The notes under the pieces are model-generated. The model did not search any database. It was not told the DNA's origin and saw only the letters and a list, made by a program, of their open reading frames with translations. The position numbers were made by a program, and so were the translations under genes. From Serinicoccus profundi (lineage in GTDB: Bacteria > Actinomycetota > Actinomycetes > Actinomycetales > Dermatophilaceae): a stretch of DNA of 64,000 bases. Shown in pieces: positions 2,019 through 53,374 of the stretch. Location: assembly GCF_008001015.1 (NCBI RefSeq), contig NZ_CP042862.1:1984001-2048000 (forward strand). The letters run 5' to 3'. How positions within the stretch are numbered: the first letter of the stretch is position 1; every line of letters starts with the position of its first letter.

Positions 2019-3011
2019 ATGCCGAGCCGCGCCGCGAGTCCCGCCACCGAGATCGAGGTCGGCGGGCGCGCGGTGCGGATCTCCAACCCGGACCGGGTCT
2101 ACTTCCCCGAGCTGGGGCTGACCAAGCTCGACCTGGCGCACTACTACCTGTCCGTCGGGGACGGGATCGTGGGGGCGCTGCGCGAGCGGCCCTGCATGAT
2201 GCACCGGTTCCCGGACGGCATCACCGGTGAGCGCGTCCACCAGAAGCGGCTGCCGCGCGGCGCGCCGGACTGGATGGAGACCGTGCACGTCACCTTCCCC
2301 CGGTGGAACCGCACGGCCGACGAGCTGTGCGTGACCGAGCTGGCGCAGGTGATCTGGTCGGTGCAGATGAGTTGCGTGGAGTTCCACCCGTGGAACAGCC
2401 GGCGCGGCCACGTGGAGCAGCCGGACGAGTGGCGGATCGACCTCGACCCCGGCGAGGAGTGCGACTTCGCGACAGTGCGCCGCGTGGCCGTCGTCGCCCA
2501 GGAGGTGCTCGGCGAGCTCGGTGCGGTGGGCTGGCCGAAAACCACCGGCTCGCACGGGCTGCATGTCTACGTCCGGATCCCGCCGGAGCACGGCTTCACC
2601 GACGTCCGCCGGGCCGCGCTCTCCTTCGCCCGCGAGGTGGAGCGTCGCACCGAGGAGGCGACGACCGTGTGGTGGCGCAAGGACCGCGACCCGCGCCGGG
2701 TCTTCGTCGACTTCAACCAGAACGCCCGGGACCACACGATCGCGAGCGCCTACAGCGTGCGGGCGACGCCGGACGCCCGGGTGTCGGCGCCGCTGCGGTG
2801 GGAGGAGGTGCCGGACTGCGAGCCGGGCGACTTCACCGTGCGCACGATGCCTGACAGGTATGCCGAGCTCGGCGACCTGCACGCCGGCATCGACGACCCC
2901 GACTCCGTGTTCGACCTCGCCACGCTGCTGGAGTGGGCCGAGCGCGACGAGGCCCAGGGCGCCCCGAGCGTCGACGACGTCGACGACGCGGACGACACCG
3001 ACGCGTCCTGA
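2019..3011 (+). CDS. Stand-alone LigD-type polymerase (archaeo-eukaryotic primase superfamily)
   Basis: This 330-residue protein matches the polymerase domain of bacterial LigD, which fills and extends ends during non-homologous end joining. The metal-binding signature RIDLDPG places catalytic aspartates at D141 and D143, followed by the TTGSHGLHVYV motif and a later VFVDFNQN carrying a further aspartate. No ligase or nuclease domain is fused, and neither Ku nor a ligase gene lies in the window, so any partners must be encoded elsewhere. The C-terminal tail (about residues 310-330) is very acidic. It begins 4 nt after the MFS stop. The 32-bp repeat array starts 63 nt downstream. Confidence 0.9.
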   Translation: MPSRAASPATEIEVGGRAVRISNPDRVYFPELGLTKLDLAHYYLSVGDGIVGALRERPCMMHRFPDGITGERVHQKRLPRGAPDWMETVHVTFPRWNRTADELCVTELAQVIWSVQMSCVEFHPWNSRRGHVEQPDEWRIDLDPGEECDFATVRRVAVVAQEVLGELGAVGWPKTTGSHGLHVYVRIPPEHGFTDVRRAALSFAREVERRTEEATTVWWRKDRDPRRVFVDFNQNARDHTIASAYSVRATPDARVSAPLRWEEVPDCEPGDFTVRTMPDRYAELGDLHAGIDDPDSVFDLATLLEWAERDEAQGAPSVDDVDDADDTDAS

Positions 3012-3074
3012 CACCGTGCCCGAGTAGGCCGACACCGATCGGGCAGGCACGAAGCGCTGGCCCTCCCCATACCC

Positions 3075-3475
3075 ACCGAGCGCCGCAGATGGTCGTACAC
3101 ACCCCCACCGAGCGCCGCAGATGGTCGCGCACACCCCCACCGAGCGCCGCAGATGGTCGCGCACACCCCCACCGAGCGCCGCAGATGGTCGTACACACCC
3201 CCACCGAGCGCCGCAGATGGTCGTACACACCCCCACCGAGCGCCGCAGATGGTCGGAGTCAACAACCATTCGCGACGCCCGGTCGGCCCAGGAGGAACCA
3301 TCTGCGACGCCCGGTCGGCCCAGGAGCAGCCATCTGCGACGCCCGGTCGGCCCAGGAGGAACCATCTGCGACGCCCGGTCGGCTCAGGAGCAGCCATCTG
3401 CGACGCCCGGTCGGCCCAGGAGCAACCATCTGCGGCGCTCGGTGGGCCCAGGAGCAACCATCTGCGGCGCTCGGT
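3075..3475. repeat. Array of 13 copies of a 19-nt core at 32-bp period, in two opposing arms
   Basis: Six forward copies of ACCGAGCGCCGCAGATGGT begin at 3075, 3107, 3139, 3171, 3203 and 3235. Seven inverted copies begin at 3265, 3297, 3329, 3361, 3393, 3425 and 3457. Within each arm the step is exactly 32 nt. The first five inverted copies carry a variant (consensus ACCATCTGCGACGCCCGGT, with single-base differences in some). The last two are the exact reverse complement of the forward core. The 13-nt spacers are nearly uniform within an arm but differ between arms. The array fills the gap between the convergent LigD-like and AMIN-like genes. Short ORFs through it only reflect the repeat. Confidence 0.95.
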
Positions 3476-3482
3476 GGGATCC

Positions 3483-4964
3483 TCAGGGGGTCTGGATGTC
3501 GACGACGAGGCGCAGCGGGTTCTCCAGCACGAAGACGCGGTAGGGCCGCGGCTCGCCCTGCATCCCGACGAAGACCTGCAGCTGGCCCTCGAAGGGCGTC
3601 GTCCGGATGACCTCGACGACGGCGGCCAGGGAGTGCGTGTCGAGCCCGTAGTCGCCCGCGTCGTAGACCGGGTCCCCGGGCTCGGGGTAGGGCATCCCGG
3701 CGAGCACGAGCTGCAGCACGCTGTCGCCCGCCACCCCGGCCGGGGCGCCGGAGCCGTCCCGAGTGGGCGACGGCTCGTAGGAGGCCAACCAGGCCGGTGA
3801 GCCGGCGGCGGTCCCCGGAGCAGCGGTGAGGTCGATCACGACCCGGTCGAAGCCGTCGTTCAGCCCGGCCCGGAGCGAGGGGGCATAGAGACCGCTCCCA
3901 CCCGCCAGGCCGCCACCGCCCTCGGTGCGCGCCTCGGGCGGGTTCCAGGGCAGCCCGGGGCCGGACCCGCCCCCGGGCTCGACCCCCACCCCCGGCTCCA
4001 CGGTGGGTATGACGGGGGTCGGGTCGACCGTCGGCTGCGCAGGTTCGGGTTCCGGCTCGGGCTCGGGGGCCGCAGGCGGCCCGGGCACGGTCGGCTCCGG
4101 CGCGACGGGCTCCGGCTGGCTCGTCTCCGTCGGCGTCGCCGGGTCGGGCTGCGTGGGCCGCGGCTGGCTGGGCGCCGGTGCGGCGACCTCGTCCGGGTTC
4201 TCGGACGCGACCTCGTCCGGGTCATCAGATGCGGTGGCGGTCTCGTCGGGCTCCTCGGTGACCGGCGCCGGAGGCTCGCTCAGGGCCACCGGCTCGTCGA
4301 GCGCGGGCGCACGGACGGTCACGAGCAGCAGCCCCGCCGACTCAGCACCGAGCCGGTGGATCGACCCGCCCCCGGCCAGCGCCTCCATCCAGAAGTCCTC
4401 GGCGGCCTGGACCTCCGGAGGACACCCGATGTCGGTGGTGCCCAGGGCAGGCGCGACGAAGGCGCCGTCCGGCTCGAGGGTCAACGGCCCCTGCACGGTG
4501 GCCTCGCCGCACGCGTCCACCGAGACTCCCCAGCCGGCGTCACCGAAGGCCAGCTCCGTCGGCGCACCCGACCCCACGACGGCCGCAGCGTCGCCACCCC
4601 GCCACAGCTCCTCGCGCAGCACCCAGGTCGTGCCCTCCAGGTCGTCGGCGGCCACCGGCGTCACGGCCGAGATGGTCGACGGGTCCGCACCGGACACGCC
4701 CGACGCGGCGAAGACGAAGGTGGTGCCGCCGTCGGGGAACTCCGCGGCGACTCCCTGCCCGGAGCCCTCGCCTCCGCCCACGACCCCTGTCTGCCAGACC
4801 AGCCCCACGGCGGCGAGGGTGAGTGCGCTCCCGACCACCGCTCCCCCGACCCGGCGCCGCGTGCGGCGGCGACGACCGGCGGTCCACGGCGCCTCCGCGG
4901 TGACCGACTCGTCACCGTCCAGGCGCGCAGCACCCTCCAGCAGGTCGCGCACATCGGCATTCAT
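3483..4964 (-). CDS. Membrane-anchored protein with META-like and AMIN-like domains
   Basis: 493 residues. A short basic cytoplasmic N terminus is followed by one membrane segment at about residues 38-57. Next comes a META/HslJ-like region (GTTWVL, a conserved Cys pair and ExFWMEAL, about 110-220), then a long Pro/Glu/Thr-rich linker (about 225-345). It ends in an AMIN-like domain with the pattern FDRVVIDL and ENPLRLVVDIQ. The product is probably displayed outside the membrane. Its ATG overlaps the sigma-factor stop by 4 nt (ATGA), so the two are translationally coupled. The position suggests an anti-sigma or co-regulated envelope role, but no classical anti-sigma domain is visible. Confidence 0.8.
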   Translation of the reverse strand: MNADVRDLLEGAARLDGDESVTAEAPWTAGRRRRTRRRVGGAVVGSALTLAAVGLVWQTGVVGGGEGSGQGVAAEFPDGGTTFVFAASGVSGADPSTISAVTPVAADDLEGTTWVLREELWRGGDAAAVVGSGAPTELAFGDAGWGVSVDACGEATVQGPLTLEPDGAFVAPALGTTDIGCPPEVQAAEDFWMEALAGGGSIHRLGAESAGLLLVTVRAPALDEPVALSEPPAPVTEEPDETATASDDPDEVASENPDEVAAPAPSQPRPTQPDPATPTETSQPEPVAPEPTVPGPPAAPEPEPEPEPAQPTVDPTPVIPTVEPGVGVEPGGGSGPGLPWNPPEARTEGGGGLAGGSGLYAPSLRAGLNDGFDRVVIDLTAAPGTAAGSPAWLASYEPSPTRDGSGAPAGVAGDSVLQLVLAGMPYPEPGDPVYDAGDYGLDTHSLAAVVEVIRTTPFEGQLQVFVGMQGEPRPYRVFVLENPLRLVVDIQTP

Positions 4965-5735: not shown

Positions 5736-6540
5736 TGACGATCGCGTCGGCACCAGCGCCGACCGGGTGCTCGCCGTGCGGGGTGGTCCCCGACTCCCTC
5801 AGCCGGCGGGTGGTGCGCCAGGTCGACGCGCCCTCCCGGACAGATCCGCTCCGAGCACGCTTCGGTGCAAGGCGTAACCCGACAGTTGGGGGTGCGGTTG
5901 CGTACCGCGTGGTCGGCGATCAAGCCGATTCTGGCAGCAGCGGCCGACGACGAGGCCCCGCCTCGCCGGCGTGGCTACCTTGGGTCGACAAGCACGTCTG
6001 GCAACATCCACCAAGCCGGTCGCCGAGGGGGGCCACGGACCGAAGGAACAGACCGGCATGGTCCACCTCACCGTCGTTGGGAACGGGCAGGTCAGGGCGC
6101 GTCTGCTCGTCCTGGTCTAGGGCAGGACGAAGGCCGCCTACGCCGACTGACTCACCGTCGTTGGGAACGGGCAGGTCAGGGCGCGTCTGCTCCTCCTGGT
6201 CTAGGGCAGGACGAAGGCCGCCTACGCCGACTGACTCACCCAGCGCGGAGAAGATTTCACCGCCGGTGTCGACGTGGCCACCTTCGACCCCTTCCAGGGG
6301 TACAAGAGCGCGATCCACGATGAACTCACCGACGCGACCGCGGTCTTGGACGCGTTAGACGTCGTCGCGCTCGGCACCAAGTTGTCGATGAGGTCCGCCG
6401 TCGGGTGCAGCAGGACACCACCGGGCACCGCGGCCGCAAGGGCGACCCGCTGGATGGGATCCAGAACATCCTGCGCGCCGGGCCGGAGTCATTCGGACCG
6501 ACAGACCAGCGGCTCCGCCGCGGCCGGAGTCCGCCCGTAG
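5736..6540 (+). pseudogene. Decayed ISL3-family transposase
   Basis: Fragments of an ISL3 transposase can be followed across several frames. They are CSPCGVVPDS (zinc-finger remnant), VTRQLGVRLRTAWSAIKPIL, KPVAEGGHGPKEQTGMVHLT, DVATFDPFQGYKSAIHDEL, DATAVLDALDVVALGTK and VDEVRRRVQQDTTGHRGRKG. Between the first two fragments a large part of the gene is missing. In-frame stops and frameshifts interrupt the rest. An 84-bp tandem duplication lies inside it. No terminal repeats were identified, so only the coding relic is annotated. It marks the left side of the acquired island. Confidence 0.85.
6067..6234 (+). repeat. 84-bp tandem duplication inside the ISL3 relic
   Basis: Copy one spans 6067-6150 and copy two 6151-6234, with one visible difference (GTCCTGG versus CTCCTGG). 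The period is 28 codons, so it keeps the old transposase frame and encodes the segment QVRARLL...GRTKAAYAD twice. Both copies carry the same in-frame TAG and TGA stops, so the duplication arose after the gene was already dead. Confidence 0.9.
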
Positions 6541-50789: not shown

Positions 50790-52193
<1,404 letters not shown>

Positions 52194-52212: not shown

Positions 52213-52366
52213 ACCGAGCGCCGCAGATGGTCGCCTAAGCACCCACCGAGCGCCGCAGATGGTTGTTGCTGGGAGTCCGGCCAACCATCTCCGACGCCCG
52301 GTCACGTCGTGAACAACCATCTGCGACGCCCGGTCACGTCGTGAACAACCATCTGCGGCGCTCGGT
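52213..52366. repeat. Second 32-bp-period array of the 19-nt core (five copies)
   Basis: Forward copies of ACCGAGCGCCGCAGATGGT start at 52213 and 52245. Inverted copies start at 52284, 52316 (variant form CGACGCCC, the first with one more difference) and 52348 (exact reverse complement). The 32-nt step holds in both arms, but the 13-nt spacers (CGCCTAAGCACCC and CACGTCGTGAACA) are unrelated to those of the array at 3075. It lies between two genes on the same strand, fumC and the DUF3097 gene. Confidence 0.95.
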
Positions 52367-52486: not shown

Positions 52487-53374
52487 GTGAGCGATCGTTA
52501 CGGCTACGGCACCGATGTCCTCGCGTCCGACTGGCGGGCCCCGCGTCGTGGACGCGCCCAGGAGGTGGCCGCCGAGCGCGGCCTGGTGGTCGAGGACGTC
52601 GACACCGGCTGGTGCGGCGCCGTCGTGGGGGTCGAGAAGGTCGGGGGTATGCGGGTCGTCCACCTGGAAGACCGCCGCGGGCGCCGCAAGGGGTTCCCGC
52701 TCGGGCCCGGCTTCCTCATCGACGGCGCTCCGGTCGTACTCACCCCGCCGAGCGATGCCGCCGCAGCAGGCCGACTCGCCCAGGCTCGCGAGGCGGCGAC
52801 GCGCACGGCGAGCGGGTCGGTGCGCGTGAGCGACCAGCCGGCCCGGGTCGCCAGCGGCTCGCGGATCTGGGTGGAGGGCAAGCACGATGCCGAGCTGGTC
52901 GAGAAGGTCTGGGGCGACGACCTCCGGGTGGAGGGGGTCGTGGTCGAGATGCTGGGCGGCATCGACGAGGTGGCCGACCTCATCCGCTCCTTCGGGCCGA
53001 GCCGCGACCAACGCCTCGGCATCCTCGTGGACCACCTGGTCCCGGGCACCAAGGAGAGCCGGATCGTCGCGGAGGCCGAGCGGGTCAGTCCGTGGGTCCG
53101 CATCCTCGGCCACCCCTATGTCGACGTATGGCAGTCGGTGCGTCCGGCGCGCCTCGGGCTGGAGGCCTGGCCGGTCATCGAGCGCGGCCGGTCCTGGAAG
53201 GACGGCATCCTCGCCGAGCTCGGGTGGCCGCACCGGAGCCAGACCGACGTCGCCCTGGGCTGGAAGAGAATCCTGGGCACCGTACGTTCTTACAGCGACC
53301 TGGAACCAACGCTGCTCGCCAGCGTCGAAGAGCTGATCGACTTCGTCACGGTTCCACCACCTCACGAGGAGTGA
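52487..53374 (+). CDS. DUF3097 family protein
   Basis: 295 residues matching the actinobacterial DUF3097 family. VVVEDVDTGWCGAVVGVEK in the N-terminal half is followed by a Toprim-like region (SRIWVEGKHDAELVEKVWGDDLRVEG, then LGILVDHLVPGTKESRI) with acidic residues placed like a Toprim metal site. This hints at nucleic-acid metabolism; the function is unknown. GTG 52487. The DUF4870 gene begins 5 nt after its stop. Confidence 0.85.
   Translation: MSDRYGYGTDVLASDWRAPRRGRAQEVAAERGLVVEDVDTGWCGAVVGVEKVGGMRVVHLEDRRGRRKGFPLGPGFLIDGAPVVLTPPSDAAAAGRLAQAREAATRTASGSVRVSDQPARVASGSRIWVEGKHDAELVEKVWGDDLRVEGVVVEMLGGIDEVADLIRSFGPSRDQRLGILVDHLVPGTKESRIVAEAERVSPWVRILGHPYVDVWQSVRPARLGLEAWPVIERGRSWKDGILAELGWPHRSQTDVALGWKRILGTVRSYSDLEPTLLASVEELIDFVTVPPPHEE

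Follow-up and report, generated by a model that had tools for sequence, protein, structure and literature searches.

Two opposing repeat arrays in the window

We analysed a window of 64 kb from a 3.48-Mb genome (G000), in which a 32-bp repeat forms two loci, each composed of a forward and an inverted arm separated by a short hinge (Table 1). Locus 1 contains the thirteen units described in the earlier note, with six exact forward units (starting at 3075, 3107, 3139, 3171, 3203, and 3235) followed by seven inverted ones, five of them variant (3265, 3297, 3329, 3361, and 3393) and two exact (3425 and 3457). The spacing given there as exactly 32 nt throughout holds within either arm and fails at the hinge, where the step is 30 (3235 to 3265). 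The first inverted unit, in which CGAA stands in place of CAGA, differs from the 19-mer at four positions, and a scan allowing three mismatches therefore retrieved 12 of the 13 units. At this threshold, the 19-mer has 17 matches in the window, compared with 0.02 expected. The smaller locus 2 occupies 52213-52366. Tandem Repeats Finder also detected 32-bp arrays, in locus 1 on both arms and in locus 2 on the inverted arm. A CRISPR array would have unique spacers between identical repeats, while the 13-nt spacers here are near-identical within an arm; we therefore agree that the array is, by its spacers, not CRISPR-like.

Table 1. Repeat arms, hinges and neighbouring genes at the two loci (window coordinates).
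Feature	Position	Strand	Pfam
Left neighbour of locus 1, LigD primase-polymerase-type protein	2019..3011	+	PF21686
Locus 1 forward arm, six exact units ACCGAGCGCCGCAGATGGT, 32-bp steps, 13-nt spacers	3075..3253	+	
Locus 1 hinge, 11 nt, separating the opposing arms	3254..3264	.	
Locus 1 inverted arm, seven units, inner five of ACCGGGCGTC type, outer two exact	3265..3475	-	
Right, convergent neighbour of locus 1, AMIN-like domain protein	3483..4964	-	PF24837
Left neighbour of locus 2, fumarase C type lyase (domain scan of the 3' part only)	50991..52193	+	PF00206, PF10415
Locus 2 forward arm, two exact units	52213..52263	+	
Locus 2 hinge, 20 nt	52264..52283	.	
Locus 2 inverted arm, three units	52284..52366	-	
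Right, co-directional neighbour of locus 2, DUF3097 protein	52487..53374	+	

Locus 1, lying in the gap between two convergent genes, is taken as non-coding. This part of the earlier description stands for locus 1 and does not extend to the whole family, as some other arrays lie inside open reading frames. A direct repeat of 84 bp also occurs in the window, at 6067-6240, with 2.1 copies and 98% identity.

Unit structure and genome-wide occurrence

Each 32-bp unit consists of a free tetranucleotide set within a fixed scaffold, ACCGRGCGYCG....TGGTYGC plus a C-rich tail. Scaffold positions hardly vary; at positions 5 (A/G), 9 (C/T), and 20 (C/T), the changes are nearly all transitions, and positions 12-15 are free across species. 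With these four inner positions left free, the pattern ACCGRGCGYCGNNNNTGGT (ACCGRGCGYCG-NNNN-TGGT) matched 170 + 149 = 319 exact units in the G000 genome (3,475,711 bases), compared with 0 + 1 for the reversed control, and 12-189 units in each of eight related species. The two loci counted previously thus belong to a much larger family, and the outcome named in the earlier note as a refutation, an array at two sites only and lacking from relatives, is not what the genomes contain.

The 9-mer CGCAGATGG occurs 163 + 150 times in G000, compared with 23 + 26 for its reversed control. For the analysis of whole arms, 60 stretches of this genome were picked from the CGCAGATGG places (among the first 100 listed per strand, about 16 single minus-strand places being omitted), and the arm statistics therefore lean to CAGA arrays. 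Together with the window, they yielded 236 units with at most two mismatches; 23 isolated and imperfect units were dropped and 213 kept. Of the 155 unit-to-unit steps, 144 are 32 bp, and the eleven exceptions, 33 (8), 48 (2), and 90 bp (1), are all multiples of three. Arrays with exceptional steps lie in clearly coding frames at 422905, 1144433, and 1626450, and a clear coding signal is missing for the 33-bp step at 762203 and for the 90-bp step, in which a second repeat is interleaved. Among 31 exceptional steps in the relatives, 23 are divisible by three and the others are 31, 37, and 26, in rows that include overlapping loci and are not independent; the choice of arrays in G414, G421, and G422 drew partly on mismatch listings or BLAST matches to a G000 array. 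A placement of every core on the same helix face, as proposed from the window, is not strictly required, since 33- and 48-bp steps occur, some of them in coding frames. Arrays with 33-bp steps give in-frame 11-residue repeats in one protein in three species (L069 ~2900-3020, L307, and L148).

Between adjacent units of one arm in G000, differences amount to 14/1209 in the scaffold and 244/1209 in the spacer, indicating that the scaffold is conserved about 17-fold better; the relatives gave 13/910 and 121/910, respectively. These counts leave out arms with steps that are not multiples of 32, and scaffold conservation is somewhat inflated by the scaffold-based detection of units, with mid-arm units taken regardless of match. 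Recent copying alone would not explain this sparing of the scaffold. Ordinary VNTRs, in which neutral local tandem duplication acts without any dispersal process, would produce the near-identical copies within an arm, as from slippage; this explanation is nevertheless very improbable, given the uneven conservation of neighbouring units and the presence of one scaffold at dozens of loci in nine species with differing spacers.

The inner tetranucleotide

By whole-genome counts, which are independent of the CGCAGATGG-chosen stretches, CAGA fills the inner positions in 227 of the 319 units of G000 and in 0-13% of those in the eight relatives (G421 18/141, G414 6/134, G422 4/114, and G399 3/148, with none in G257 0/189, G410 0/99, G398 0/38, and G407 0/12). 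CAGA is dominant in G000 also at sites where relatives have other tetranucleotides. In the relatives sampled, different arrays have different tetranucleotides, and within one arm the tetranucleotide is often, though not always, the same. An uptake-sequence-like dialect was rejected on the ground that relatives mix many tetranucleotides, and a recombinase core site with its dyad on the tetranucleotide was also discarded, as that centre does not stand out in the symmetry scan. A search for base-pair covariation inside the unit revealed nothing convincing.

In G000, the inner end unit is the poorer match of the two end units in 20 arms and the better one in 5 (p 0.004); for arms of at least three units, the inner end is worse in 17 vs 5 (p 0.017). 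In the relatives, the odd unit is at the inner end in 13 arms and at the outer end in 9, of 44 testable; polarity is not established because of these counts, and we do not claim polarised array growth as a general rule. One reading of the tetranucleotide pattern invokes an undescribed trans-acting enzyme, other than Y1, that would copy the 32-bp unit into new sites and existing arrays, rewriting the genome to one tetranucleotide with the scaffold fixed and leaving older words at the inner end of some arms. We offer this combination tentatively and consider it unlikely.

Opposing arms, folding, and gene context

Opposing arms are nearly always directed inward. Of the pairs at most 260 bp apart, all 12 in G000 (p 0.0005) and 9 of 11 in the relatives are inward, both exceptions lying in one G398 cluster. 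A wider G000 pair with a gene between its arms (1693569 / 1694175) is outward. The unit itself showed no strong centre of symmetry in the symmetry scan. Scored against 60 shuffles, both whole window loci fold far better than expected (z -7.7 to -18.2), while the single arms gave z values of +2.1 and -1.7 (forward arm, two strands) and +2.7 and +2.2 (inverted arm). The multi-stem RNA suggested in the earlier note consequently finds support in opposing arms only, as shuffles fold better than three of the four single-arm strands and slightly worse than the fourth.

Among the 44 loci with an arm of at least two units, frame scoring classed 32, comprising 10 convergent, 21 co-directional, and 1 divergent, and left 12 unclassified, among them the ribD gap, which is divergent by reading. 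Convergent gaps accordingly number 10 vs 2 divergent ones (p 0.04), an excess seen for many extragenic repeats. Single arms in co-directional contexts showed no orientation bias, 7 running along and 9 against transcription. A hand recount gave 5 along and 6 against, after exclusion of the in-frame arrays at 422905, 1144433, 1626450, and 1513339 and of the array at 788281, which has a one-unit partner.

These data bear on the proposal that the arrays act as terminators or structured RNAs in convergent gaps, where the opposing arms would form a long hairpin stopping RNA polymerase from both sides. The folding of the whole loci and the 10 convergent loci vs 1-2 divergent ones are in its favour. 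However, many loci have one arm, single arms are not stably folded, 21 of the 32 classified loci are co-directional with arms in either orientation, and arrays also occur in divergent promoter gaps and in frames. We thus regard this explanation as improbable, and the ending of convergent transcription, put forward from the window, does not hold as a general role.

Transposon ends around a cargo were also considered and rejected, since the frames bracketed by opposing arms look like ordinary genes. One of them encodes NAD synthase according to Pfam, and by eye we take the others to be acetyltransferase-like, FKBP-like, and YbaK-like proteins. A ribD-like gene (L123:5349-6655, own genome, minus strand) appears to be split over two overlapping frames, presumably, by eye, a deaminase-like half and a reductase-like half; the split may be a frameshift or an assembly error. 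A second dispersed repeat, approximately GGAGGATCCGTRCACGCGCANNCATCCTC, is partly palindromic and tandem at 52-bp steps (L108:2690-2975, L069:9585-9689, and L062:3065-3117, own-genome minus-strand coordinates); at L108 it is interleaved with 32-bp units.

Distribution among genomes

We scanned 186 genomes of the family. Nine of the 31 genomes of the genus carry the repeat, with 12-319 units each (G000 319, G257 189, G399 148, G421 141, G414 134, G422 114, G410 99, G398 38, and G407 12). The 22 other genomes of the genus and 155 others of the family have 0-2 units each, compared with 0-3 for the reversed control. In a LigD-like protein tree covering 30 of the 31 genomes, the carriers require 2 changes, compared with 7.8 in shuffles, none of 500 shuffles being as low. 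The carriers do not form one clade on this tree; the exception is G257, which is placed elsewhere and has a very long branch leading to its copy.

When run across the order, the CAGA-bound pattern GCAGATGGN{24,25}GCAGATGG matched 136 times in G000, and 9 of 395 other genomes each had a single stray match. The idea that the 32-bp family is private to one genome was rejected as an artefact of the GCAGATGG-bound tandem pattern, the inner tetranucleotide being variable. Hits outside Serinicoccus from a separate search are unrelated to the repeat by sequence. In Rubritepida flocculans, one identical sequence, unrelated to the 32-bp arrays, lies near contig ends and is probably a multi-copy element breaking the assembly. 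Carriage by phages or plasmids was rejected, as the collections of viral contigs, plasmids, and phages contained zero matches. A single Rfam match, under its gathering score, was read as chance. A search of the open-licence literature found no description of the 32-bp repeat.

Turnover at syntenic sites

At the syntenic sites compared, arrays have been gained, lost, and rewritten between species; the comparison is between species, not between strains of one species. None of the 13 relatives shown has a unit within ~390 bases after the LigD-like gene that precedes locus 1, and six of the 13 keep the same convergent neighbour. In G407, the corresponding gap is occupied by a different repeat, a relative of the GGAGGATCCGTRCACGCGCANNCATCCTC repeat (L178).

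A 10-kb riboflavin-gene block is matched in all eight other carriers. In one of its gaps, arrays are limited to G000 and G257; units occupy the ribD-side gap in eight of the nine genomes (not G398), with differing tetranucleotides; and in a third gap, G421, G414, and G399 have arrays, G422 has one unit, and G000 has none. The gap upstream of nadE contains arrays in G000, G414, G399, and G421 and two degenerate units in G410, with no unit in G422, G407, and G257 and an unclear sequence in G398. Within nadE (NAD synthase), three units are present in G000 and G421 and none in seven relatives, and the G000 frame stays open through its three in-frame units. The array at 1508464 is absent from all seven relatives looked at. 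Neither a target-site duplication nor a constant insertion signature could be defined from the syntenic empty sites, because the relatives are too diverged. Several sites, such as the ribD-side gap, are old and shared, and insertion may therefore be rare.

The main rival explanation is that the arrays are selected by the host, with a putative sequence-specific protein of this clade, nucleoid-associated or regulatory, binding each core; tandem cores about three helical turns apart would then allow cooperative binding or bridging. Protein binding to the arrays, also raised in the earlier note, is possible because the scaffold is strongly constrained, and the constraint fits a selected binding site equally well. 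The near-invariant scaffold within diverging spacers, the predominance of 32-bp steps, the single dominant tetranucleotide in G000 though spacers vary between arrays, and the retention of arrays at one site in eight of nine genomes all agree with this proposal. On the other hand, relatives have many tetranucleotides per genome, syntenic sites are often without arrays, and 33- and 48-bp steps and copies inside genes are tolerated. In our assessment, host-selected binding arrays are a possible explanation that is somewhat doubtful.

A proposed mobile repeat family

We favour, with a probability of roughly 55%, a clade-specific, non-autonomous family of STAR-like interspersed direct repeats, whose units are spread by a trans-acting factor and multiplied by local tandem duplication. 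The restriction to nine carriers, chromosome-wide dispersal, gain and loss at syntenic sites, tandem copies, inward opposing arms, constrained scaffold, one dominant tetranucleotide in G000, and absence of an orientation bias among single arms are the observations on which it rests. In the mechanism we envisage, the factor would recognise the scaffold and seed units where insertion is tolerated, and the arms would thereafter lengthen by replication slippage or unequal recombination. Head-to-head arms could form a long hairpin or cruciform, and old sites would be converted to whichever unit type is active in the species at the time. The in-frame copies in genes are as expected of tolerated insertions. 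If the arrays benefit the host at all, for instance by binding a protein or by terminating transcription in some convergent gaps, this would be a secondary effect.

Dispersed tandem units are known in actinobacteria from the MIRU of mycobacteria, and in-frame repeats tolerated inside proteins from the Rickettsia palindromic elements. The closest known kind is the staphylococcal STAR element, which passages of PMC3532100 describe as an interspersed intergenic direct repeat with a short conserved motif, recurring spacers, and 1-7 copies per locus. According to the same passages, the STAR spacer is specific to locus and lineage, and locations differ between species; they report no frequent transfer between loci. 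The 32-bp arrays likewise repeat a short conserved sequence in direct orientation, separated by recurring spacers, at many intergenic sites, and, in the between-species comparison, their sites differ and copies expand or contract per locus. The dimensions are different, with a 14-bp motif and 40-44-bp spacers in the STAR passages (PMC3532100) and 19-24 conserved nt and ~13-nt spacers in the present unit. By eye, the sequences are unrelated, and the STAR motif proper, T(G/A/T)TGTTG(G/T)GGCCC(C/A), is not in the unit consensus. Unlike STAR elements as these passages present them, the 32-bp arrays have inward-paired arms, a free tetranucleotide nearly uniform in one genome, and some in-frame copies.

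REP/REPIN elements mobilised by a RAYT, a Y1 tyrosine transposase, were considered as well. As in the account of REP, REPIN, and BIME sequences in parts of PMC3733652, the 32-bp units are dispersed in hundreds of extragenic copies, limited to some species, arranged in foldable, inward opposing pairs, and located mostly in convergent and co-directional gaps. REP units are described there as palindromes with a GTAG or CGTC tag, the GTAG types being tied to RAYTs, whereas the 32-bp unit is not a palindromic hairpin and does not fold, and it forms long direct arrays. Furthermore, the Y1 transposase, the one mobiliser family covered by our search, was found in none of the 31 genomes of the genus, the control search being positive in 5 of 14 known genomes. 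Mobilisation as REP/REPIN elements is thus hardly credible. The pneumococcal BOX element, as outlined in parts of PMC3049150, is similarly modular and dispersed, with tandem inner modules that vary in number, but has the end modules boxA and boxC and folds as a unit, whereas the 32-bp family has one kind of unit. In the array flanks printed, the only common feature was a C-rich lead before the first unit, and separate end modules were not seen.

Passages of PMC3532100 describe the mode of spread of STAR elements as open, and the question is a general one for short interspersed direct repeats in bacteria that have no recognised mover. With nine related genomes carrying 12-319 units, syntenic sites both empty and filled, in-frame copies in a conserved gene, and an inner tetranucleotide that tags unit types, the clade offers a test bed for this question, and the 32-bp arrays would serve as typing markers.
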